Part shown: piece after piece, positions 1 through 9,951 of the stretch | Layout of the letters: every line of letters starts with the position of its first letter | Position numbering within the stretch: position 1 is the stretch's first letter | DNA from: Deltaproteobacteria bacterium RBG_13_61_14 | GTDB lineage: Bacteria; RBG-13-61-14 | Direction: 5' to 3' | DNA: 16,173 nt | NCBI GenBank assembly: GCA_001797815.1 | Contig: MGQK01000021.1 | Coordinates: forward strand, 18,427-34,599 | Translations under genes and position numbers: made by a program | Notes under the pieces: model-generated | The model's database searches: none | Seen by the model: the letters and a program-made list of their open reading frames with translations, nothing else | What the model was told of the DNA's origin: nothing

Positions 1-428
1 ACCTGCTCGATCCCGGCTTCGGCATCAATCACGGTCAGGTCGAACTGGCCGGCCAGGAGCTCAATGGCTTCCCGCAGGAGCGTGTTGACCGAGCAGTAGC
101 AGCCCACTTCCTCCGGCCGGCCAAGAGACAAAAAAGCCAGGTTCCCCCTCTCGGTGACCGCCTCCAGCAGCCGGTAGTCCAGGGAAACGGCCAGATCCTT
201 GGGCCCGGTTTCTCGATTTTTGATTTCCCGGATGGTTTCCTTGCGCACCACGTTGAGCGAGCGCTTGACCGGAAGGGAAAGGGCCAAACCCAGGCCCCCG
301 GCCGGGTCCGCGTCCACCAGCAGCACCTTCCGCTCCGTTTGCCGGGAAAGCGACCGGGCGAGCACCGCCGCGACCGTGGTCTTGCCCACCCCGCCTTTCC
401 CGCAGACCGCCACCACCCGGGGACTCAC
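1..428 (-). CDS. CooC-like nickel-insertion ATPase, 3' end cut by window edge
   Basis: About 142 N-terminal residues are visible of a family that is usually about 250-270 aa. Residues 5-18 form a deviant Walker A loop (VAVCGKGGVGKTT), followed by VLLVDADPAGG at 35-45, a CXC pair (C110, C112) in GCYCSVN, and VIDAEAGIEQ at 133-142. This order is that of CooC, the MinD/ParA-type ATPase that loads nickel into carbon monoxide dehydrogenase; in CooC a CXC motif at the dimer interface binds metal. The GTG start at 428 overlaps the upstream stop as GTGA, so translation is probably coupled, and it places the P-loop at the usual N-terminal position. It is the last visible gene of the minus-strand operon. 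The specific client (CODH, ACS or the co-encoded reductase) cannot be told from sequence. Family assignment is good; function is inferred. Confidence 0.82.
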   Translation of the reverse strand, partial: MSPRVVAVCGKGGVGKTTVAAVLARSLSRQTERKVLLVDADPAGGLGLALSLPVKRSLNVVRKETIREIKNRETGPKDLAVSLDYRLLEAVTERGNLAFLSLGRPEEVGCYCSVNTLLREAIELLAGQFDLTVIDAEAGIEQ

Positions 429-1141
429 CGCCGCTTCCTCGCCAGCAGTTTTTCCCGAATCTGTCTCAGGTCGGGCACTTGCTCGCACACGTCCCGGAAC
501 TCGCAGCTAGCGCAGTCGTAACTCATCTCCTCGCTCATCTTGACCATGGCGCTCGTGATCCGGGCCGTCTCCCGGCCCGCGCTTTCCAGGCCGGCGATGT
601 CCCGGGCGCTTCCGGTGATAAAGAGCGCACGCGCGCCGGAGACAAACGCCGCCTCTTTCAGCCGGCGGACCAGGGCGGCGCCCAGATGCGCCAGGGAAAA
701 TCCATTTTCGAGCGCTTCGTGGTTCACCCGCGACCAGATGGTCTGGCGGCTGGGAAGGACCCGGGTCATGAGCCCGCGGAGCTTGGTGTCATAGACCGCT
801 TCCCGCAGCTTTTGGTAGCATTCATACTCGTCCGCAAAAGAACCGCGGACCAGGAGGACTTGGGCAAACGGCTCCCGCCCGGTCTTCATCTCGTTCAGGT
901 CCGGACCCAGGAGCAGGACCTGATCGCCGTCCGCCCAAGCTCCCTCGGTCCAGAGCAGGAGCGAAAGGGAGCCGAGGCCAGGGTGGCCCAGTTCCAGCGC
1001 CGTGTCTTCTTCCAGGATCAGGCTCGATTCCTCGGGCCAATCCCAAGCCGCATGCAGCGGGAACTCCCGGACCTTATGGGACGCCCGCTGCAGAGCCAGG
1101 AAATCTTCCAGTTGTTGGAGCGGGGAGTCGAAGAGTCCCAT
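425..1141 (-). CDS. Stand-alone acetyl-CoA synthase (AcsB/CdhC) middle-domain-like protein
   Basis: 238 aa. By recall it aligns with the middle (A2) domain and the beginning of the A3 domain of acetyl-CoA synthase. Residues 50-66 (E-L-G... ), 75-83 (LLLGPDLNE, compare VIGPDIDQ in Moorella AcsB), 92-103, 106-125 and 141-150 (HEALENGFSL, compare DAVAKGFRF) follow the order in AcsB. The end, EEMSYDC-ASC-EFRDVC (C210, C213, C219), corresponds to the first Fe4S4 ligands of the A-cluster (YSCVLC...). The protein then stops at residue 238, so the fourth ligand and the CGC that holds the nickels are missing, as is the N-terminal CODH-binding domain. The ATG at 1141 lies one base after the upstream stop; longer in-frame starts only read through the preceding gene. 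It may be a scaffold or adaptor that binds the normal ACS partners. The alignment is from memory and needs a profile search. Confidence 0.68.
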   Translation of the reverse strand: MGLFDSPLQQLEDFLALQRASHKVREFPLHAAWDWPEESSLILEEDTALELGHPGLGSLSLLLWTEGAWADGDQVLLLGPDLNEMKTGREPFAQVLLVRGSFADEYECYQKLREAVYDTKLRGLMTRVLPSRQTIWSRVNHEALENGFSLAHLGAALVRRLKEAAFVSGARALFITGSARDIAGLESAGRETARITSAMVKMSEEMSYDCASCEFRDVCEQVPDLRQIREKLLARKRR

Positions 1142-1142
1142 C

Positions 1143-1913
1143 TCAGTCGGATTGGCCCAATAAGGCCGCGCCGATGGCGGCCGCGAGCTGGGGATCAGAG
1201 GGGAAGGGGTGGAAGGTGCCGCCCAGTTTTTCCTGGATGATCCGGGCCACGGTTTGGATCTTGGCCACGCCTCCGGTGAGGGTGTAGTGTTCGGCCGCGC
1301 CGAAGCGGCGGCCTTGGGCCGTGACCATCCGGGCCACGGAGGCGCACACCCCGGCGAGGATGTCGGGGACGGATTCCCCGTTGTTGAGGTGGGTGATGAC
1401 CTCGCTCTCCGCGAACACCCCGCACTGGTTGCTGATCTCGATATGGTTTTGCGACCGGGCCACGGTCCGGTCAATCTCGGCCAGGCCGATCTTGAGCTTC
1501 TCGCTCATGACTTCCAGGAACCGGCCGGACCCGGAGGCGCATTTGTCGTTGCGCATGAAATCGGCAACTTCGCCCTCCGGGTTGAGGAGCAAGGCGGTGG
1601 TGCTCTGGCCGCCCACGTCAATGCACAACTGGATCTCGGGCAGGTAATAACCGGACGCGGCTCCCACGCAGCTGACCACATCTTCGACGCCATCCGCCCC
1701 GGGCAACAGGTCCGCGCCATTGCCCGTGCCGATCAGACAAGCCACCCGCTCGCGCTCTAGCCCGGCTTCCTGGATGACCGCCCGGACCAGCCCGTTGATC
1801 TCGTCCGCGATATTGCCGGTGGTGCGAAGCACCCGGCCGGCGAGCAACTGATCCCCGTCCAGGATCACGGCCTTGGCAAAGAGGCTTCCGATATCGCATC
1901 CCGCTGTGATCAT
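1143..1913 (-). CDS. ASKHA-type activase ATPase, BcrA/BadF/HgdC family, divergent paralogue
   Basis: 256 aa, the size of HgdC-type activators. These homodimeric or heterodimeric ATPases carry one Fe4S4 cluster at the subunit interface and push electrons into HgdAB/BcrBC-type partners at the cost of ATP. The two cluster cysteines are present: C125 in NDKCASGSGRF and C164 in SNQCGVFAESEV. The phosphate loops are GCDIGSLFAK (residues 5-14), IDVGGQST (98-105) and LTGGVAK (212-218). Two motifs depart from the usual form seen in its neighbour: GTGNGA replaces the (S)TGYGR element and GGQST replaces GGQDAK. The ATP site may therefore be altered while cluster binding is kept, as expected for an unequal heterodimer. 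The ATG overlaps the previous stop (ATGA), and the next gene starts after one base. Family certain; partner inferred. Confidence 0.9.
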   Translation of the reverse strand: MITAGCDIGSLFAKAVILDGDQLLAGRVLRTTGNIADEINGLVRAVIQEAGLERERVACLIGTGNGADLLPGADGVEDVVSCVGAASGYYLPEIQLCIDVGGQSTTALLLNPEGEVADFMRNDKCASGSGRFLEVMSEKLKIGLAEIDRTVARSQNHIEISNQCGVFAESEVITHLNNGESVPDILAGVCASVARMVTAQGRRFGAAEHYTLTGGVAKIQTVARIIQEKLGGTFHPFPSDPQLAAAIGAALLGQSD

Positions 1914-2701
1914 CCGGCGCCCGCTTTCCTCCGGGCAAACAGGGCGGCGCCAAAAGCGCCGATGATTTGCGGGTCAACCGGCGCATGCACCACCTTCACG
2001 TTTAACATCCGCTCCAGCTCGTTCTTGACCGCCACGTTCTTGGCCACGCCCCCGGTGAGCATGACCTCCCGCTCCGGGTTCACCCGCCGGGCCAGGGCCA
2101 GGACTCGCTCGGCCATGGCCCGGTTGATCCCCGCGGCAACGTCCTTCTTGGACACGCCCCGCTGCAGGTAGTGGATCACTTCGGTCTCCACGTAAATGGT
2201 GCAGCGGTTGCTCATTTCCACCGGCTTGCGCGAGCCCAGGGACAGGGGACCGAGTTCTTCGAGGGATACCCCGAGCGTCCGGCTCATCACTTCCAGGAAA
2301 TGGCCGGTCCCCGCGGCGCACTTGTCGTTCATGACGAAGTTCTCCAGCTCGCCCGCGGCGCCGATTTTGATCACCTTGGCATCCTGACCGCCGATGTCAA
2401 TGACGGTGCGCGCCTCCGGGCAAAGGGTCCAAGCGCCCAGGCCGTGGCAGGAGATCTCCGAGATGTTTTCCTGGGCCAGGCCTTCCGCTTGCAGCTTCTC
2501 GCGGCCGTAGCCGGTGCTGACCGTGTAGCAAATGTCTTCCGGCTTGATCCCATGCCGCGAGCAAAGCCGGCCCAGGACTTCCTTGGCGGAGTCAAGGGGA
2601 TGAGGAAGCACCGATATGATCTCCGACCCCAGGATCTGGCCGTCCGATAGGACCACGGCTTCCGCGGTAAGCGAGCCAATATCAATTCCAGCGAACAACA
2701 T
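1910..2701 (-). CDS. ASKHA-type activase ATPase, BcrD/HgdC family, canonical paralogue
   Basis: 263 aa. It has all the standard signatures of a 2-hydroxyacyl-CoA dehydratase or benzoyl-CoA reductase activator: GIDIGSLTAEAV at the N-terminus, STGYGR at 62-67, IDIGGQDAK at 101-109, C128 in NDKCAAGTGHF, C167 in SNRCTIYVETEV, and LTGGVAKN at 215-222. The two cysteines supply the Fe4S4 cluster shared between the two protomers. It is encoded 20 bases after the large HgdB-like subunit and overlaps the second activase by 4 bp. The order catalytic-catalytic-activase-activase is the gene content of class I benzoyl-CoA reductases, whereas classical dehydratases normally use one activase gene. The spacer before the ATG has only a weak ribosome-binding site (CCGGGA). 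It may pair with the divergent paralogue or form a homodimer. Confidence 0.93.
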   Translation of the reverse strand: MLFAGIDIGSLTAEAVVLSDGQILGSEIISVLPHPLDSAKEVLGRLCSRHGIKPEDICYTVSTGYGREKLQAEGLAQENISEISCHGLGAWTLCPEARTVIDIGGQDAKVIKIGAAGELENFVMNDKCAAGTGHFLEVMSRTLGVSLEELGPLSLGSRKPVEMSNRCTIYVETEVIHYLQRGVSKKDVAAGINRAMAERVLALARRVNPEREVMLTGGVAKNVAVKNELERMLNVKVVHAPVDPQIIGAFGAALFARRKAGAG

Positions 2702-2721
2702 TTCGGAAATCCCGGAGACGG

Positions 2722-4176
2722 CTAGACGCTACTCCCGGCCGCGGGCGGGTTATCTTCGGAAACGAGTTGGCTTTTTCTGCGGTCCTTGAGCTTCCTCGGC
2801 TTCAGGGACTTTTTCGCCACCACGTTCCTCACGAACTCGTCAATCTCCTGCTGGAGCACGCTCATCGGCGTCATCCGTTTCATCCAGGAATCCCCTTGCA
2901 GGATCAGAAGCGGAAGGCCGGTCCGCTTGGTCAGTTCGCTGCGGAGGATGGAGACCACGCTCCAGGTCTGCTTGCAGGAATGGTGGCCGCAGTAGATCAC
3001 GCAGTCGGCTTTCAGTTCCTTGGCCGCATAAATCACGTCCTCGGTCCAGGAGCGCGACATGGACTCGCCGCCCACCTGCCGGGTCATGGGCATGTTCCAG
3101 GCCGCTTCGGCGATGCCCTCGATCATGGTGTCCCGGGAGGAGGTATCAACGATGCTGGGAAAGCAAAGGTCCAGGCCGTCTCCGAGATGGGTGTAGCCTC
3201 GCTCTTCCATCCAACTGAAGAAGCCCATGAAATCAAAGTAATAGCTGGTATAAGCCCAGAGGCAGCGGGCGACTTCTTTCTCGGCCGGGTAGGCCTTCCG
3301 GGCCAGGCGCTCTTTGCAAACCTTGACCATGGCCTCGAGCGTCTTGATGGCCTCGTCGGTCCCCCACATGGTAAACCGGGTCCCATAGAGCAAGAGCGAG
3401 AAAATGTTCGGGACCGGGCACGGCACCGCTTTGTGGAGGTCCCAGATCTCGTAGTAGAGTTCGGTGCAGCGGTTGGCCTTGGTCAGGACCCGCCGGAGTT
3501 TGTCCTCGGTCAACTCCTCGCCGAGAAACTCTTCCAACTGCGCAATCAGCGCGTGCAGGTATAGGGCATATTGCTTGCGCCCCCGGCCCGAATCGTCCGG
3601 CGGCTTGGGAAGGAAGAACTGGGGTATTCCCAGGTGGTGGGCGACAAACTCGTGGATCTTGGAATTGACGTCACAGCCTCCGGGCGCCGCGGAGATAATG
3701 GCCTGGGGCTTAAAATCCTCGCTGCCGAGCATGGAGCCCAGCTCGATGGTATTGGCCGAGCATAAATGGTCGGGCAGGCCCAGTCCCATGGCCATGTCCC
3801 AATATTGCTCCCCCTGGCCGACCGCCGCGGCCAGGGTGGAGAGGACCTCGCTGGTCAGGGGAGTTGCGGAATCGAACGCATGGATCAGCTCGCAGGGGAA
3901 GTTGAAGGGCACCAGCAAGACCTTTTTGCCGTTCCGGGAGGCGTTGCGGGCATCGGTCGCCCATTTGGCGGTCATCTTTATGAAGGCCAGGCTGGCCGGC
4001 CGGGCGTGGGGGGCCAAAAAGGTTCCGAGCGCCGAGGCCATCTCGGCGGGAAGGATCGGAGAGATTGCCAGCAGCAAGGCGCCGGCTTTGTCCAGCACCG
4101 GGGCGGGCAGGCGATTCAACAGGGCAAGCTGAAGGGACAGGCGATTAAACAGTCCCGTAGGCGTACTCAACTTCAT
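2722..4176 (-). CDS. 2-hydroxyacyl-CoA dehydratase / benzoyl-CoA reductase-type subunit, large (HgdA/BcrB-like)
   Basis: 484 aa, counted from the ATG at 4176, which overlaps the upstream stop (ATGA); longer in-frame extensions only read the previous gene in a wrong frame. The two-lobed HgdAB/BcrBC fold is suggested by VLLVPFNFPCELIHA (86-100), PGGCDVNSK (165-173), GIPQFFLP (183-190), and a C-terminal lobe with VGGESMSRSW (368-377), DCVIYCGHHSC (391-401), GLPLLILQGDS (420-430) and a final helix IDEFVRNVV. Eleven cysteines (95, 139, 168, 237, 253, 287, 305, 338, 392, 396, 401) offer enough ligands for one Fe4S4 or a double-cubane cluster. A basic tail (about 456-470) is added. The first 80 residues look like an alpha-helical addition ahead of the core. 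Known relatives reduce or dehydrate CoA-thioesters, or are double-cubane proteins of uncertain substrate. No substrate can be assigned here. Confidence 0.85.
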   Translation of the reverse strand: MKLSTPTGLFNRLSLQLALLNRLPAPVLDKAGALLLAISPILPAEMASALGTFLAPHARPASLAFIKMTAKWATDARNASRNGKKVLLVPFNFPCELIHAFDSATPLTSEVLSTLAAAVGQGEQYWDMAMGLGLPDHLCSANTIELGSMLGSEDFKPQAIISAAPGGCDVNSKIHEFVAHHLGIPQFFLPKPPDDSGRGRKQYALYLHALIAQLEEFLGEELTEDKLRRVLTKANRCTELYYEIWDLHKAVPCPVPNIFSLLLYGTRFTMWGTDEAIKTLEAMVKVCKERLARKAYPAEKEVARCLWAYTSYYFDFMGFFSWMEERGYTHLGDGLDLCFPSIVDTSSRDTMIEGIAEAAWNMPMTRQVGGESMSRSWTEDVIYAAKELKADCVIYCGHHSCKQTWSVVSILRSELTKRTGLPLLILQGDSWMKRMTPMSVLQQEIDEFVRNVVAKKSLKPRKLKDRRKSQLVSEDNPPAAGSSV

Positions 4177-5297
4177 TGCGGGCCTCCTATCCTTTCCAGG
4201 AAAGCCTGGACGCGGGTTTTCATCCGGCCGATGTCCGCACTGGCGCCGTATTCTTTTTCGAGCTGCAAGACCGGGATTCCTTTCTTCTCCAGGGCGAGGC
4301 GAAACGCCACGTTGTCCACCCCGTGCACGTCGCAAAACTTGTTGTGGACCAGGATCACGCCGTCCGCCTTGGCCCGCTCCACCGCGGCGAGCACATAGTC
4401 TCGCCGGCGGGGAAAGTCCTGGAACATCCTCGGACACAAAAGTTCTTCCAGGTAGGTCTTGGCCAAAACCTGGAGCGGGTCGCCCGCTTTCGCCGGGTTC
4501 AGCCGCGGCCAGAAAGCGCGGGAACCATAGCACAAGGTGTCGGCGACCACCAGGCCACCCATGCTCTCGATCCCCTGGATAAAGTCTACCTCGTCGGTCG
4601 CGCTCCCGCCCAGCAGCAGCCGGGCCTTGTAGCCCCGGATTTTATGGTCCTTCCTCTCCGCGATGGCCTGGTCCAGAAGCTTTTCCCGGATCGCGGCCGG
4701 CGCCGCGGTCGCCATCAGGAAAAGGGAAAGCGTCTCGGCCCCGGTAAAGGCCGGCTCGGCCCGCTCCCGCATCTCGTAGATGGTTTTTAGTTTTTCCCGA
4801 ACCCGGTCCTCCATCTGAATCTGATTCCACAGTTCCGCTTCGGTGATCGTTACATCAAAATGGTTTTCGATCGCCTGCTTATACAACCGCAAGTCCTCTT
4901 CATAGTATTTTAAGGAACTCGGGTCCGCAAGATGCGGGACTTTGAGGTAGTGGAGAAAAGCGAACGGCTTGGCGTAATGCCAGTTCTCGATCATGCCCCG
5001 GAGATGGTCGCAGCCGTTGGTCTCGATCATCCCGTCCAAAAAATCATAGGTGCCGTCCAACCCCAGTTGCAGGCAGGACCGGCAAAAGCTGCAGTTGAAG
5101 CGGGACAAACGGGCGTCGGCCATCTCGGTCTGGCTGTTGCCCAGCGCTCGGACCCGGTAGGGCAATAGCCCGGCCGCATCCATAATCTCCGTCGGGGTGG
5201 CCAGGCAAATGTAGCCCACCACCCGGCCGCCGTCCCGCTTCCACTTTTTGACGTGCTCGTTTTCGATCACTGCCGACTGCTTGATAATCTCGTCCAT
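4173..5297 (-). CDS. 2-hydroxyacyl-CoA dehydratase / benzoyl-CoA reductase-type subunit, small (HgdB/BcrC-like)
   Basis: 374 aa from the ATG at 5297, close to the usual length of BcrC/HgdB. Family marks are GGRVVGYICLATPTEIMDAAG (23-43), FNCSFCRSC (67-75), NGCDHLRGM (94-102), ARLLLGGSATDEVDFIQGIE (225-244), VADTLCYGSRAF (251-262), LLCPRM (286-291) and GVILVHNKFCDVHGVDN (313-329). Cysteines 31, 69, 72, 75, 96, 256, 288 and 322 are candidate cluster ligands; the CxxCxxC at 69-75 is notable. The start is uncertain: the frame stays open to an ATG at 5555, adding 86 residues of low family likeness. I chose 5297 because it puts the conserved VGY motif about 20 residues in, as in relatives, and is preceded by GTGAGGAA. 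This is the first gene of the operon and presumably pairs with the large subunit that follows. Confidence 0.85.
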   Translation of the reverse strand: MDEIIKQSAVIENEHVKKWKRDGGRVVGYICLATPTEIMDAAGLLPYRVRALGNSQTEMADARLSRFNCSFCRSCLQLGLDGTYDFLDGMIETNGCDHLRGMIENWHYAKPFAFLHYLKVPHLADPSSLKYYEEDLRLYKQAIENHFDVTITEAELWNQIQMEDRVREKLKTIYEMRERAEPAFTGAETLSLFLMATAAPAAIREKLLDQAIAERKDHKIRGYKARLLLGGSATDEVDFIQGIESMGGLVVADTLCYGSRAFWPRLNPAKAGDPLQVLAKTYLEELLCPRMFQDFPRRRDYVLAAVERAKADGVILVHNKFCDVHGVDNVAFRLALEKKGIPVLQLEKEYGASADIGRMKTRVQAFLERIGGPQ

Positions 5298-5555
5298 TTC
5301 CTCACCCCCGAACCATCCTGGCGCTATGAACCCGGCTTCCGCGACCGCTCCCAGCCCCGGACCAGGTTCGCGATCACCCGCCCCGTCTTCTTCCTCGATC
5401 CGCCTGAGCCTTCCCGCGGAACCGGGAACCGCTGAGGCTGCCTTTTCAAAATGTGAGATCCCTGGGCTTTTCTGAGGCAGGCGCGGGAGCAGGGCCTCGG
5501 GCTTCTTCACCCCAACCTTGCCTAAAACCTTGTCCTCTCCCTTGGGTAACTTCAT
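5298..5555 (-). other. Leader region or N-terminal extension ahead of the small HgdB-like gene
   Basis: This is open reading frame in phase with the downstream gene (ATG at 5555). The 86 encoded residues are rich in Gly, Ala, Glu and Pro and show no family motif. The promoter -10 hexamer ends 5 bases before this ATG, so a transcript from it would be leaderless there or miss the ATG. Translation from 5297 would then leave a 5' leader of about 250 nt. I recognise no riboswitch class in it. Confidence 0.4.
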
Positions 5556-5560
5556 CCTCT

Positions 5561-5589
5561 ATTATGCACGAGCTTGATGAATATTTCAA
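5561..5589 (-). promoter_or_regulatory. Sigma70-like promoter for the reductase/activase/CooC-like operon
   Basis: Read on the minus strand: TTGAAA (5589-5584), a 17-base spacer, then CATAAT (5566-5561). Both hexamers differ from consensus by one base, the AT-rich stretch stands out from the GC-rich surroundings, and it faces the operon. The start of transcription should lie near 5553-5555. Confidence 0.55.
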
Positions 5590-5607: not shown

Positions 5608-5633
5608 GGGGTCAGGTCTTTAGTTTTTAGTTT
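5608..5633 (+). repeat. Left 26-bp inverted repeat of the RAYT element
   Basis: It begins GGGGTCAGGTCT and continues as two heptamers TTTAGTT (5619-5625 and 5626-5632). It is the exact reverse complement of 6621-6646. A further related heptamer, TATTGTT (5633-5639), follows. Confidence 0.85.
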
Positions 5634-5673
5634 ATTGTTGATTTGATTTCTCGGCCATGTTAGCATGCCCGGC

Positions 5674-6627
5674 ATGGCCAGACCCTGGCGCCTGCAATTT
5701 CCGGATGCCGTTTACCACATCATCTCCCGCGGCAACAACCGCCAGGCCATCTTCCATGACGATGCCGACCGGGAGATGTTCCTGGTCCTGCTCGGCCAAG
5801 CGGCGGCGCGCTTTCCTCTCCACCTGTTTGCCTTCTGCCTGATGAGCAATCACTACCACCTGTTCCTTCGCACCCCCGAGCCTAACCTCGCCTCGGCCAT
5901 GCACTGGCTCAATGCCACTTACAGCATGCGCTTCAATCGTCGGCATCATCGCCTGGGCCATCTTTTTCAAGGTCGTTATCGGGCGGTGGTGGTGGTCGAG
6001 GAATCGCACTGGTGGCACCTTTCCATGTATCTCCACCTCAACCCGGTTCGGGCGGGGATGGTGCCAGACCCGGGGGTCCACTTCTGGTCGAGCTTTCGCG
6101 ATTTCACCCGGCGCAAGTCGCGCTTTGAGTGGTTGAAGCCGGAGGAGGTGTTGACCGGCTATGGACGGGGCGAGGCTGACCAGAGGCGCCGCTATCGCCG
6201 GGAATGCCTGGAGTTGGCCGGCGCCGCCTCGGATTTTTGGGAGGAGTTGCGCTCCAGCTTTTTCCTGGGCACTCGGGCGGCGCTTACGGAAATGGCGCGG
6301 CGGCATCGGCCCAAGGGCCAGAGCCAGGAGGTGCCGGCTTTTCGACGGGCGGGGCGAAGGGAGGTGGATCCCGAGTTGGAGTTGACGCGAGTGGCCCAGG
6401 CCTTTCAGGTGGCCAAGGCCGAAATTTTCCAGCGACGCTGGAATCATTGGCCCCGGATGGCGGCCTATTTTCACCTGGTGGAACATTGCGGGATGAAGGT
6501 CAGCGCCGTGGCGAAGAGGATGGGGGTCGGGGCCCCGGCGGTTACCTTGGGTCTTAAAGTCTTCCGGAAAAAGTTAGCCAAGAGCAAAAACCTACGGGAC
6601 ACCATCGCCGACTTAGCTAAAAACTAA
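5674..6627 (+). CDS. REP-associated tyrosine transposase (Y1_Tnp, HUH family)
   Basis: 317 aa from the ATG at 5674, giving the typical family start MARPWRLQFPDAVYHIISRGNN; an ATG nine bases earlier (5665) is also possible. The N-terminal Y1 domain contains FCLMSNHYHLFLRT with the metal-binding HxH (HYH), then GHLFQGRYRAV and MYLHLNPVRAGMV. The latter carries the conserved helix, with its tyrosine as the likely nucleophile. The C-terminal part (about 210-310) ends in a helix-turn-helix-like stretch, SAVAKRMGVGAPAVTLGLK, found in long RAYT variants. These enzymes nick and join single-stranded DNA at REP-type sequences and are often single-copy domesticated genes. The stop codon (6625-6627) lies inside the right inverted repeat, so gene and repeat have been kept together. 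Confidence 0.92.
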   Translation: MARPWRLQFPDAVYHIISRGNNRQAIFHDDADREMFLVLLGQAAARFPLHLFAFCLMSNHYHLFLRTPEPNLASAMHWLNATYSMRFNRRHHRLGHLFQGRYRAVVVVEESHWWHLSMYLHLNPVRAGMVPDPGVHFWSSFRDFTRRKSRFEWLKPEEVLTGYGRGEADQRRRYRRECLELAGAASDFWEELRSSFFLGTRAALTEMARRHRPKGQSQEVPAFRRAGRREVDPELELTRVAQAFQVAKAEIFQRRWNHWPRMAAYFHLVEHCGMKVSAVAKRMGVGAPAVTLGLKVFRKKLAKSKNLRDTIADLAKN

Positions 6628-6646
6628 AAACTAAAGACCTGACCCC
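6621..6646 (-). repeat. Right 26-bp inverted repeat of the RAYT element
   Basis: Exact reverse complement of 5608-5633. It contains AACTAAA heptamers at 6622-6628 and 6629-6635, preceded by AGCTAAA at 6615-6621. The transposase stop codon TAA is part of it. Confidence 0.85.
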
Positions 6647-6726: not shown

Positions 6727-7296
6727 ATGCCCGGTATGTATAGCCAGAAAGTAATGGAGTATTTCAACAACCCGCGCAACATGGGGGAGATCGAGAACCC
6801 CAGCGGGGTCGGGGAGGTCGGCAACGCGGTTTGCGGGGACATGATGCAGATGTTCATCAAGGTGGACGAGCAGGGGATCATCACCGACGCCAAGTTCAAG
6901 ACCTTCGGCTGCGCCTCGGCCATTGCCAGCTCCAGCATCGCCACCGAGATGATCATCGGCAAGCACGTGGACCAGGCGCGCAAGATCCGCAACCGTGATA
7001 TCATCGAGGCCCTGGACGGGCTGCCCAAGCACAAGATCCATTGCTCGGTGCTGGCCGCGGATGCGATCAACAAGGCGATTGACAATTACCTGGGCATTGT
7101 CCGGGGCGAGGCGGAGGAGATCGTTTGCAAATGCAACGGCATCACCCGGGGCGAGCTTGAGGAAGCCATTGCCCACGGCGCTTTCACCCTGGAGCAGGTG
7201 GCGGAAAAGACCGGGGCCACCACCGGGCCTTGCGGCGGGATCCATTGCGGGCCGATCATTGAAGAGATGCTGAAAAAGTATTCGGGCGAGGAGTGA
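6727..7296 (+). CDS. nifU: NifU-like Fe-S scaffold: IscU domain plus BFD-type [2Fe-2S] domain
   Basis: 189 aa. Residues 5-125 are an IscU/NifU N-terminal scaffold with the three assembly cysteines C36 (VCGD), C62 (FGCAS) and C106 (HCSVLA) and the conserved Asp after the first. Residues 132-180 are a bacterioferritin-associated-ferredoxin type domain with CKCNGITRGELEEAI (C134, C136) and GPCGGIHCG (C169, C174), which binds a permanent [2Fe-2S] cluster. The C-terminal Nfu domain of azotobacter NifU is absent; this shorter form is common in anaerobes that use NifU/NifS as their general Fe-S machinery. No nitrogenase genes are near, so a housekeeping role is likelier than nitrogen fixation. It opens a four-gene plus-strand operon and is followed after 6 bases by nifS. 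The start has a good purine-rich ribosome-binding site. Confidence 0.95.
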   Translation: MPGMYSQKVMEYFNNPRNMGEIENPSGVGEVGNAVCGDMMQMFIKVDEQGIITDAKFKTFGCASAIASSSIATEMIIGKHVDQARKIRNRDIIEALDGLPKHKIHCSVLAADAINKAIDNYLGIVRGEAEEIVCKCNGITRGELEEAIAHGAFTLEQVAEKTGATTGPCGGIHCGPIIEEMLKKYSGEE

Positions 7297-7302
7297 ACCA
7301 CC

Positions 7303-8490
7303 ATGCGCAATGTTTATCTGGACAACAACGCCACCACCCCGATCCACCCCGAGGTGCAGGAGGCGATCAAGGAGGCGCTCCCGATTTACGGGAACGCTTC
7401 CAGCCACCATTCTTTCGGCCAGGAGGCGCGGGAGCGGGTGGAGGACGCGCGGGTCAAGCTGGCCCGGCTGATTAACGCGGACCCCTCGGAGATCATCTTC
7501 ACCAGTTGCGGTTCCGAGTCGAACAACCTGGTGCTCAAGGGCGTCACCTGCGAATACGTGCCCTGCAAACCCAAGGACGCGCCGGGCGGCCGGCACATCG
7601 TCACCAGCCAGATCGAGCATCCCTCGGTGAAGAATACCGCCAATTGCCTGGAGCAGCGCGGTTTCAAGATCACCTGGCTGCCGGTGGACCCGCGCGGGCT
7701 GGTGGACCCGGAAGACCTCAAGAAGGCGATCACCCGCCAGACCGTCCTGGTGACGGTCATGCTCGGCAACAACGAGATCGGCACCATCGAGCCGATCCAG
7801 GAGCTCTGCGCCATCGCCCGCGAGCACGGGGTCTTCTTCCATACCGACGCGGTCCAGGCGCTGGGCAAGGTCCAGGTGGACGTGAAAGAGCTGGAGGTGG
7901 ACTTCCTCTCGCTGTCCGGCCACAAACTCTACGCGCCCAAGGGCATCGGCGCGCTCTACATGAAAAAGGGCCGCATGATCTGCCCCCTGTTTCACGGCGG
8001 CCACCAGGAGGGGGGGCTGCGCGTGGGCACCGAGAACACCCTCGGCATCATCGCCCTGGGCAAGGCCGCGGAAGTGGCCCGGCGCGACATGGGCCAGGAG
8101 GCGCCCCGGATCTGGGCGCTGCGCGAGAAACTCCGCCAAGGCATTGAGAAGCTCATCCCGGACGTGCGCTTCAACGGTCACCCGGAAAAGGTTTTGCCCG
8201 GGACCCTGAACGTCAGCTTCCTCTACGTGGAAGGAGAGTCCATCCTGCTCCGGCTCTCGGGCAAGGGCATCGCCGTCTCCACCGGCTCCGCCTGCTCCTC
8301 GGGCTCGCTCGAGCCGTCCCACGTGCTCCTGGCGCTCGGGCTGATCCATGAAGAAGCCCACGGCTCCATCCGCTTCAGCCTGGGCCGGGAGAACACCGAG
8401 CAGGACGTGGACTACGTGCTCGAGGTGCTCCCGGGGGTGATCGCGGACCTGCGCAAGATGTCGCCGCTTTCCCGGGCCCGGGCGGGGTGA
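7303..8490 (+). CDS. nifS: Cysteine desulfurase, NifS/IscS class
   Basis: 395 aa, full length for a group I desulfurase. This PLP enzyme takes sulfur from cysteine and passes a persulfide to the NifU scaffold encoded just upstream. Visible marks: VYLDNNATTPIHPEV at the N-terminus, SQIEHPSV with H106, HTDAVQALGK (180-189), SLSGHKLYAPKG with the PLP lysine K208, RVGTEN (240-245), and the mobile catalytic loop STGSACSSGSLEPSHVL with C331. The loop insertion after the HPSV region is short and the active-site segment is the long type, as in NifS/IscS rather than SufS. The gene starts 6 bases after nifU and has its own ribosome-binding site within the end of nifU (GGCGAGGAG). Confidence 0.97.
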   Translation: MRNVYLDNNATTPIHPEVQEAIKEALPIYGNASSHHSFGQEARERVEDARVKLARLINADPSEIIFTSCGSESNNLVLKGVTCEYVPCKPKDAPGGRHIVTSQIEHPSVKNTANCLEQRGFKITWLPVDPRGLVDPEDLKKAITRQTVLVTVMLGNNEIGTIEPIQELCAIAREHGVFFHTDAVQALGKVQVDVKELEVDFLSLSGHKLYAPKGIGALYMKKGRMICPLFHGGHQEGGLRVGTENTLGIIALGKAAEVARRDMGQEAPRIWALREKLRQGIEKLIPDVRFNGHPEKVLPGTLNVSFLYVEGESILLRLSGKGIAVSTGSACSSGSLEPSHVLLALGLIHEEAHGSIRFSLGRENTEQDVDYVLEVLPGVIADLRKMSPLSRARAG

Positions 8491-8501
8491 GGCGGAAAGT
8501 T

Positions 8502-8580
8502 GTATTGAGTATTTCGTATATTTTTTTTGCGCTAGACTGAATACGAAATACGGAATACTGAATACGAAATACGAAACACC
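8502..8580 (+). repeat. Degenerate heptamer array with inverted arm, nifS-cysE gap
   Basis: From 8539 six 7-base units follow without a break: GAATACG, AAATACG, GAATACT, GAATACG, AAATACG, AAACACC. The segment 8502-8519 is the inverse complement of 8541-8558 with 16 of 18 matches, separated by a loop that includes eight T residues. A 15-base direct repeat (8538-8552 and 8559-8573) has a 21-base period, that is, three heptamers. The block fills most of the 106-bp gap and could form a long AU-rich hairpin in the operon transcript. Confidence 0.75.
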
Positions 8581-8596
8581 TTCCCAGGGCAAAACG

Positions 8597-9322
8597 ATGC
8601 TCGACCGAATCCGCGAAGACATCCAGGCCGTCTTTAATCATGATCCTGCCGCCAATAATTTCTTGGAGGTGGTTACCTGCTATCCGGGCTTGCATGCCAT
8701 CTGGATCCACCGGGCGGCTCATCGGCTCTACCGGCGCCGGCTGTTCACCTTGGCCCGGATGGTCTCCCACCTGGGCCGGTTCCTGACCGGGGTGGAGATC
8801 CATCCCGGCGCCGTGATCGGCCGGCGGGTGTTCATTGACCACGGCATGGGCGTGGTGATCGGCGAGACCGCGGAAGTGGGCGACGACTGCCTGCTCTACA
8901 AGGGCGTGGTCCTCGGCGGCACCAGCCTGGAAAAAAAGAAGCGCCACCCCACCCTGGGCCAGGGCGTGGTGGTCGGCTCCAACGCCTGCATCCTCGGCGC
9001 CATCGAGATCGGCGACGGCGCCCGCATCGGCTCCGGCTCGGTGATCGTGCGCTCGGTCCCGGCCCAGGCCACCGCGGTGGGCATCCCCGGCAAGGTGGTG
9101 CTGAAAAAGACCACCGGCGATCTTTCCGCGGACCTGGAGCACGCGAACATGCCCGACCCCATGCTCGACGTGGTCAAGGTCTGGCTGCGCATGTTCCGGA
9201 AATACGAGGAGCGGCTGAGGCGCCTGGAGCAGGAGCACCAGATCAAAGAGCCTGAGCTGGTCAAGGATTACCAGCGCGAGCTGGAATTTTTGAACCAGGA
9301 CGAGGATAATGAGGAAAGCTGA
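8597..9322 (+). CDS. cysE: Serine O-acetyltransferase
   Basis: 241 aa. It makes O-acetylserine from serine and acetyl-CoA, the first step of cysteine synthesis. The N-terminal alpha-helical part (1-65) includes NNFLEVVTCYPGLHAIWIHRAAHRLY. The left-handed beta-helix (about 66-175) carries IHPGAVIGRRVFIDHGMGVVIGE, with the conserved His/Asp and His residues of the active site, then YKGVVLGG, KRHPTLGQGVVVGSNACILG and GSVIVRSVPAQATAVGIPGKVV. A charged, probably coiled-coil tail (about 190-241) follows, longer than in the shortest bacterial forms. It sits between nifS and a second Fe-S scaffold, so the operon couples cysteine supply with cysteine-derived sulfur use. The weak ribosome-binding site (AGGGC) lies in the gap after the heptamer repeat. 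Confidence 0.95.
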   Translation: MLDRIREDIQAVFNHDPAANNFLEVVTCYPGLHAIWIHRAAHRLYRRRLFTLARMVSHLGRFLTGVEIHPGAVIGRRVFIDHGMGVVIGETAEVGDDCLLYKGVVLGGTSLEKKKRHPTLGQGVVVGSNACILGAIEIGDGARIGSGSVIVRSVPAQATAVGIPGKVVLKKTTGDLSADLEHANMPDPMLDVVKVWLRMFRKYEERLRRLEQEHQIKEPELVKDYQRELEFLNQDEDNEES

Positions 9323-9339
9323 GGGACCGGGGAAGGCAA

Positions 9340-9951
9340 ATGTCGCCGGACAATAAGAAGTTAATTGAACATTTCGAGAACCCCCGCCACCTGGGCGAGA
9401 TCGAGAATCCGGACGGCGTGGGGGTGGTCGGCAACCTGGTCTGCGGCGACCTGATGACCTTTTCCATCCGGGTGCGGGACGACCGGCTGCAGGAGGTCAA
9501 GTTCCAGGCTTTTGGGTGCGGCGCGGCCACCGCGGTCTCGAGCTACATCGCGGACACGGTGCAGGGCAAGACCCTGGCTGAGGCCAAAGCGCTGCGGGTG
9601 GAGGACCTCTTCCAGGACTTGCGCGGTCTGCCGGAGAATCGGGTCCACTGCACTTTCCAAGGGCTGGACGCCCTGAACATGGCCATCGAGGACTACGAGG
9701 AGCGCCGCCGGGGGAAGAAGGAGCGGGGCAAGCGCCTGGAGATCCGGGCCGGCCTGGAAAGCCATCCCGACCATGTTCACCCGGTCGGGTGCTGCTGCCC
9801 TTACTGCAACGCGGCGCTCCTGGGCGACAAGCACTATTGCGAGCCGTGCGGCAAGGAGTTCCAGTATTGCAAGCACTGCGGCCAGGCCCTGCCCCTGGAG
9901 GCCGAGACCTGCCTGGCCTGCGGCAAAAAACTCCTCGCCACGGCCCGTTAA
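9340..9951 (+). CDS. IscU/NifU-type scaffold fused to a paired zinc ribbon
   Basis: 203 aa. Residues 5-125 repeat the IscU scaffold fold and keep all three cluster cysteines (C35 in VCGD, C60 in FGCGAA, C104 in VHCTF). In place of a BFD or Nfu domain there is a charged linker (120-140), an HPDHVHP stretch (142-148), and two CxxC-CxxC pairs: CPYC (153-156) with CEPC (167-170), and CKHC (177-180) with CLAC (191-194). Two extra cysteines, C151 and C152, precede them. The spacing of the pairs is that of rubredoxin-like or double zinc-ribbon modules. The scaffold portion is clearly paralogous to the operon's NifU (shared NPR(N/H)(M/L)GEIENP). It may be a specialised scaffold or delivery protein, possibly with the ribbon binding Fe or Zn or docking a client. 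Start context GGGGAAGG is good. Confidence 0.85.
   Translation: MSPDNKKLIEHFENPRHLGEIENPDGVGVVGNLVCGDLMTFSIRVRDDRLQEVKFQAFGCGAATAVSSYIADTVQGKTLAEAKALRVEDLFQDLRGLPENRVHCTFQGLDALNMAIEDYEERRRGKKERGKRLEIRAGLESHPDHVHPVGCCCPYCNAALLGDKHYCEPCGKEFQYCKHCGQALPLEAETCLACGKKLLATAR

Follow-up and report, generated by a model that had tools for sequence, protein, structure and literature searches.

What does an operon do in which the genes of an ATP-driven reductase stand beside a piece of acetyl-CoA synthase (ACS) and a CooC-type ATPase? This question is raised by a six-gene cassette in a 16,173-nucleotide stretch of Deltaproteobacteria bacterium RBG_13_61_14, hereafter the window (contig MGQK01000021.1; G000:C21:18427-34599, part of a 4.7-Mb draft genome; G, C and L numbers are our handles for genomes, contigs and loci). 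The cassette encodes two subunits of the benzoyl-CoA reductase (BCR)/(R)-2-hydroxyacyl-CoA dehydratase (HAD) superfamily, here called HgdA and HgdB, two ASKHA activases, a stand-alone ACS A2-domain protein (ACSL) and a CooC-type ATPase. A preliminary description had assigned the cassette to the service of carbon monoxide dehydrogenase (CODH) and ACS. By computation, we established its gene set and conservation, the homologies, ligand residues and clade of its proteins, and its independence from CODH/ACS. We put at roughly 55% the probability that it encodes a new ATP-dependent reductase of the BCR type, equipped with a dedicated metal-site module of ACSL and CooC, and it is probably a distinct enzyme system rather than a part of the carbon-monoxide/acetyl-CoA machinery.

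Genes, cofactor ligands and clade of the cassette

Open reading frames (ORFs) and Pfam matches place six minus-strand genes at 3-5297 of the window, read from 5297 downward:

5561..5589, minus strand: promoter-like site upstream of the cassette, TTGAAA-17-CATAAT, 10/12 matches (consensus match only)
4173..5297, minus strand: HgdA-type subunit (HGD-D 1), 374 aa, BzdN-like; PF06050, 275 bits; predicted carrier of an [8Fe-9S] double cubane
2722..4176, minus strand: HgdB-type subunit (HGD-D 2), 484 aa, BzdO/HadB-like; PF06050, 176 bits; predicted active-site [4Fe-4S] subunit
1910..2701, minus strand: ASKHA activase 1, putative ATP-driven electron donor, 263 aa; PF01869 (BcrAD_BadFG), 207 bits; TIGR00241 above cut-off
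1143..1913, minus strand: ASKHA activase 2, 256 aa; PF01869 (BcrAD_BadFG), 143 bits; TIGR00241 above cut-off
425..1141, minus strand: ACSL, stand-alone ACS A2-domain protein, 238 aa; PF03598 (CdhC), 37 bits vs a 24-bit cut-off; C-terminal C-x2-C-x5-C
3..428, minus strand: CooC-type deviant Walker A ATPase, N-terminal 142 aa; AAA_31/CbiA (ParA/CbiA-type) matches; CxC metal motif

The six-gene set with tight junctions and one promoter, as first described, was confirmed by Pfam, by the ORF junctions (from HgdA to CooC: 4-bp overlap, 20-nt gap, 4-bp overlap, 1-nt gap and 4-bp overlap) and by the single promoter-like site found, against 0.2 expected. An assembly gap interrupts the CooC gene, which therefore lacks its 3' end.

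We then compared the reductase subunits with solved structures. In the 2025 structure of BzdNO, the [8Fe-9S] cluster is held by Cys36/73/100/263/293/327 of BzdN and the [4Fe-4S] cluster by Cys95/128/380 of BzdO (PMC11971306). BzdN (8s02_B) is the best PDB match of the window HgdA with 177 bits, followed by HadC (112), the double-cubane cluster protein (DCCP; 87) and MbdN (86). Residues C31, C69, C96, C256, C288 and C322 of HgdA align with the six BzdN ligands and are invariant or nearly so in cassette homologues, with a deviating residue at two of the six columns in the HgdA of L096. In the same alignment the cysteine set is incomplete in HadC and MbdN, with no equivalents of C31 and C256 in HadC (3o3m_B). 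The best profile match of HgdB in the PDB is BzdO (127 bits), and the only conserved cysteines of HgdB, C139 (31/31), C168 (31/31) and C401 (30/31), align with BzdO C95, C128 and C380; its predicted fold (mean pLDDT 81) matches HadB, the best Foldseek match, as well as MbdO, BzdO and DCCP. Both activases carry both cluster cysteines, which are invariant among 42 homologues where covered, and the nearest solved relatives of activase 1 are HgdC- and HadI-type activators and MbdQ. These ligands point to a Bzd-type layout, with a predicted double cubane on HgdA and a predicted [4Fe-4S] cluster on HgdB.

None of the NCBIfam equivalog cut-offs for BCR, HAD or DCCP was reached by the window proteins. 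The BzdN model TIGR03190 scored 161 bits vs a cut-off of 454 and the BzdO model about 22-25 vs 449; the HadBC models matched both HGD subunits weakly (NF052456, 131 vs 700; NF052455, 32 vs 750), and the DCCP model NF040772 gave 184 and 50 bits vs 350. Trees, which were quick IQ-TREE searches without bootstraps, were built for HgdA from 28 cassette proteins, PDB references and proteins scoring above the cut-off of TIGR03190. All 28 cassette HgdA proteins formed one group (SH-aLRT 99), separate from BzdN, HadC/MbdN and DCCP. When the set was enlarged by 25 HGD proteins of nine genomes, this clade took in five proteins from outside the cassettes, inside it or at its base, all from ACSL-bearing genomes (G000, G026, G173). 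G026 and G173 have an unlinked ACSL-CooC pair, and their HgdA-HgdB-activase genes lie elsewhere (L123, L128) with HgdA inside the clade. By the cut-offs, trees and cysteine sets, identity with a known BCR, dehydratase or DCCP is rejected, and the earlier claims of a two-plus-two ATP-driven redox module of the BCR/HAD family that lies outside its named members hold up: families, ligand cysteines and clade support the former, and HgdA sits within none of the BzdN, HadC and DCCP clades.

The other two proteins relate to the CODH/ACS machinery. The AlphaFold model of ACSL (pLDDT 90) matches only the A2 domain of ACS, superposing on residues 316-495 of Moorella ACS with Z 19 and a root-mean-square deviation of 2.4 A over 171 residues, and the A2 motif W-x-R is kept. 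The A1 domain, the A3 domain and the CGC Ni-ligand motif are all absent from ACSL, which ends soon after its first cysteine group. Its C-terminal C-x2-C-x5-C occurs in 35/36 homologues and is preceded by a fourth cysteine in 27, the window protein being of the three-cysteine subtype. The CooC homologue of L030 has CooC1 (3kje) as its best PDB match, and cassette CooC proteins share the Walker A sequence GKGGVGKT and C110xC112 in 23/23 homologues, the CxC aligning with CooC1 C112/C114. These CooC1 cysteines bind Zn, and Ni competes for the same site (PMC6006190). In the simplest reading CooC serves ACSL; by analogy, it may be a nickel loader.

Conservation of the gene set and independence from CODH/ACS

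An alignment of six ACSL sequences, used to search GTDB species genomes, gave 27 named loci; the ACSL scan used one peptide pattern and is a sample, not a census. An HgdA- and/or HgdB-type gene lay in the same cluster as ACSL at 23/27 loci, and the remaining four (L036, L038, L042, L054) are short contigs or contig ends. The loci belong to metagenome-assembled genomes (MAGs) titled Actinomycetota, Dehalococcoidia and other Chloroflexi (Chloroflexota), Desulfobacteraceae and other Deltaproteobacteria, Myxococcota, Spirochaetes and Jordarchaeia. The orders seen were HgdA-HgdB-Act-Act-ACSL-CooC, HgdB-HgdA-Act-Act-ACSL-CooC, Act-Act-ACSL-CooC-HgdB-HgdA and Act-ACSL-HgdA-HgdB (Act, activase), and some related cassettes carry one activase instead of two. 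The grouping goes far beyond chance, because it recurs in many unrelated genomes, and the varying gene orders argue that it is the partnership itself that is conserved, beyond the inheritance of one block. The neighbourhood survey thus shows a gene set that recurs across phyla and is not restricted to the window genome, and the proposed link of the redox module with the ACS-derived ACSL and with CooC is supported both physically and evolutionarily.

The window genome itself holds a second cassette (contig C73, L029 4210-8264) of the order Act-ACSL-HgdA-HgdB and a third HgdA-HgdB pair from the same HgdA clade (contig C40, L118 15466-17920). G001 and G002, relatives in the window's order, have the Act-ACSL-HgdA-HgdB type; the G001 contig starts within ACSL, leaving the activase out of view. 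On a Jordarchaeum contig (L042 144-3082), ACSL and CooC are kept, and the reductase and activase genes that lie between them in L040 are absent. No earlier description of the gene set was found in the literature searched, which did not include the principal papers of Jeoung and Dobbek on double cubanes; the nearest lead was a six-gene HGD-like cluster, undetected, of a benzene-degrading sulfate reducer, the gene contents of which are not named there.

HgdA and ACSL also occur together at the genome level. Among 386 genomes, an HgdA of at least 430 bits was present in 10/10 ACSL genomes vs 2/376 others, with a p of 4e-18 that is indicative only, as the threshold was set with the scores already known, several of the genomes being related. 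One of the two others is G034, an 89% complete genome in which a high-scoring HgdA lies on a 5-kb contig and ACSL went undetected; the second is G088, and the one high-scoring HgdA of this genome to be placed in the tree (C300) branches just beyond the clade. Among ACS-like proteins, those of G088 and G228 seemed to be exceptions and proved to be archaeal-type CdhC. Cassette-type CooC was found in 16/18 genomes searched, at 268 bits or more in 15 and as the incomplete copy in the window genome. Five Dehalococcoidia/Chloroflexi genomes with a CooC-less cassette also hold a second ACSL-CooC pair. Two different cassettes, one CooC-less in an SCP2/acyl-CoA dehydrogenase context and the other with CooC, occur in the Dehalococcoidia/Chloroflexi genomes of L187, L188, L189 and L190. 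We discarded the possibility that cassettes without CooC draw on the CooC of CODH operons: the trend was weak (p 0.07), and a cassette-type CooC is present in 16/18 genomes searched, in several of them next to a second ACSL.

Regarding INDEPENDENCE from CODH/ACS, full-size ACS beta is encoded in 26 of the 35 cassette genomes and CODH in a further two (G001, G399), whereas 7/35 (G376, G316, G406-G410) have neither; TIGR01702 matches in these seven, where any, reach 25-31 bits vs a cut-off of 478. G376 is a single contig and 100% complete, most of the other six being MAGs, and all seven keep ACSL and CooC beside the reductase genes. The cassette therefore does not depend on CODH/ACS, and its CooC must have another client. 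In addition, the CODH/ACS operon of the window genome (contig C10) already includes a RACo gene and two CooC-type genes, and no cassette was seen within a CODH/ACS operon. In the CooC tree, the cassette proteins separate from the four tested CooC proteins that belong to CODH/ACS operons; two of its rows bear operon labels but are duplicate entries of cassette copies. The preliminary description had proposed a test of co-occurrence with acsB/cooS, and a loose association with acsB does exist (7/10 ACSL genomes vs 31/376 others, p 5e-6, the genomes not being independent). Feeding CODH/ACS or loading CODH is ruled out as a general role by the seven genomes without both, and the corresponding earlier proposals, including the loading of Ni into CODH by this CooC, are left unsupported.

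Gene neighbourhood, proposed mechanism and alternatives

We further looked for substrate clues in the neighbouring genes. GMC-type oxidoreductase genes adjoin the cassette in L037, L039, L057 and L095 (Pfam) and in L041 and L048 (sequence likeness only); SCP2 genes in L044, L048 and L049 (at or above cut-off) and in L033 and L054 (below); and acyl-CoA dehydrogenase genes in L030 (twice), L044 and L189, and by sequence likeness in L050 and L052. Thiolase and ChsH2 lie beside the cassette in L189, and for a pair of small proteins encoded upstream of the one in L030 no clear Pfam family emerged. A molybdopterin oxidoreductase gene (968 aa) stands between HgdB and HgdA in L094 (2465-8016), and ACSL-CooC adjoins aldehyde:ferredoxin oxidoreductase-type genes in L031 (12570-16801, Pfam) and L093 (7066-11859, likeness), with the reductase genes elsewhere in the genome. 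No benzoate pathway genes lie beside the window cassette. Beyond the assembly gap, genes for PIG-L and 3-hydroxyacyl-CoA dehydrogenase follow on the same strand, so acyl-CoA genes are not wholly absent there, contrary to what had been described, and related cassettes stand beside acyl-CoA dehydrogenase, SCP2, GMC and thiolase/ChsH2 genes. These neighbours suggest a hydrophobic acyl-CoA (CoA thioester) substrate, which is the weakest step of our interpretation.

Elsewhere in the window, an insertion-element-like unit (5608-6646) lies directly upstream of the cassette promoter and comprises a REP-associated-transposase-like ORF (5665-6627, plus strand) flanked by perfect 26-bp inverted repeats (5608-5633 and 6621-6646). 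Consecutive NifU-like, NifS, CysE and second IscU-like genes, identified by sequence likeness, form an Fe-S assembly/cysteine operon at 6727-9951 (plus strand) that lies near the window cassette and was not seen beside other cassettes. An Rfam search of the window gave zero matches.

By homology, the mechanism is well supported up to electron delivery; we infer the electron path, the substrate class, the metal and the roles of ACSL and CooC. Reduced ferredoxin would donate to the [4Fe-4S] cluster of the activase dimer, which on ATP hydrolysis would pass electrons to the [8Fe-9S] double cubane of HgdA; from there they would reach the open-site [4Fe-4S] cluster of HgdB and then the substrate, probably a hydrophobic acyl-CoA. 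ACSL, with its own three- to four-cysteine site, and the CxC-bearing CooC would be a dedicated pair serving the reductase and not CODH/ACS, ACSL most likely as the metal-site subunit and CooC as its ATP-dependent loader. Several observations weigh against this scheme. The SCP2, GMC and acyl-CoA dehydrogenase neighbours are lineage-restricted, none adjoins the window cassette, and no pathway gene is constant across cassettes. The acid/base residue His131 of BzdO is replaced by Asn171 in the window HgdB (profile alignment), though MbdO also lacks the histidine. Cassette-type CooC is missing from G402 and G405, 2/18 genomes searched, and some cassettes have no adjacent CooC. ACSL lacks the ACS A3 domain with its Ni ligands, which makes Ni binding by ACSL uncertain.

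Among the alternatives, the service of CODH/ACS, whether by cofactor maturation or by supplying it or its corrinoid protein with electrons of very low potential, draws on the homology of ACSL and CooC to CODH/ACS parts, on the presence of CODH and/or ACS in 28/35 cassette genomes and on the acsB enrichment. We regard it as improbable, since the seven genomes without both, one a complete single contig, refute it as a general role, and the operon's own RACo and CooC-type genes and the separate CooC clade also speak against it. An equally slim chance attaches to a HAD-type (R)-2-hydroxyacyl-CoA dehydratase with the extra genes as bystanders. The superfamily is the same, HadB is the best Foldseek match of the HgdB model and the HadBC models match weakly; against this, the cassette HgdA keeps six double-cubane cysteines, two of which HadC lacks, scores lie far under the HadBC cut-offs and HgdA falls outside the HadC clade. 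Nor are ACSL and CooC bystanders, as the gene set is conserved across phyla.

Somewhat more credible, while still unlikely, is a protein-directed ATP-dependent activation or maturation complex, in which HgdAB and the activases reduce or build a metallocofactor on ACSL or another client. Methanogens offer a parallel in the ATP-driven activation complex of methyl-coenzyme M reductase, and activase 1 matches the methanogenesis marker 15 model at 125 bits, below its cut-off. ACSL and CooC still stand together at loci where HgdAB is missing or not linked to them (L031, L093, L042), which favours such a complex, as does the lack of a constant substrate-pathway gene, whereas HgdB retains the catalytic-subunit fold and the BCR/HAD cluster ligands, and several lineages have acyl-CoA genes adjoining the cassette.

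The reading of the cassette as a new BCR-type reductase has a bolder extension, to which we give a low probability: ACSL might be a pared-down ACS relative with a Ni-Fe-S or mixed-metal site, loaded by CooC and partnering a double-cubane ATP-driven reductase, that is, a CODH/ACS-independent Ni enzyme system outside every known Ni enzyme family. Class I BCR-type enzymes work at redox potentials among the lowest in biology. If the new-reductase reading is true, a widespread clade with an ACS-derived subunit and CooC would broaden the range of substrates open to this chemistry, be the first case of the ACS A2 domain and CooC acting outside CODH/ACS, and provide a handle on how uncultured bacteria and archaea of sediments turn over lipids or aromatics. 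Given the compactness of the operon, metal content and activity are directly testable.

Comparison with known systems

The closest parallel is the Bzd-type class I BCR (BzdNOPQ, PDB 8s02), which likewise combines a pair of catalytic subunits with a pair of activases (encoded by four consecutive genes in the window), has six [8Fe-9S] ligands on the N-type and three [4Fe-4S] ligands on the O-type subunit, and includes the best solved sequence relatives of both subunits. The cassette differs from it in its separate clade, sub-cut-off scores, Asn in place of BzdO His131 and the added ACSL and CooC. HAD dehydratases (HadBC/HadI, PDB 3o3m) share the fold, the activase type and the three-cysteine catalytic subunit, but HadC lacks two of the six double-cubane cysteines and belongs to another clade; we know of no ACSL or CooC partner for them. 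DCCP (PDB 6eno/7yyl) resembles the cassette in the double-cubane ligand set, as in HgdA, and in being an ATP-driven reductase with an ASKHA partner, but is a homodimer with two double cubanes, whereas the cassette HgdB has only three conserved cysteines.

Compared with ACS (AcsB/CdhC), ACSL shares the A2 domain in sequence and fold, the W-x-R motif included, and differs in having no A1, A3 or CGC Ni ligands, in its three- to four-cysteine C-terminus and in its place beside HgdAB, also in genomes without CODH/ACS. The cassette CooC likewise has the deviant Walker A and CxC motifs of the CooC/AcsF Ni ATPases, with predicted metal binding. In contrast to these ATPases, which serve CODH or ACS, it forms a clade apart from the operon CooC proteins tested, is linked to ACSL and not to CODH, and is kept in the seven genomes that have neither enzyme.

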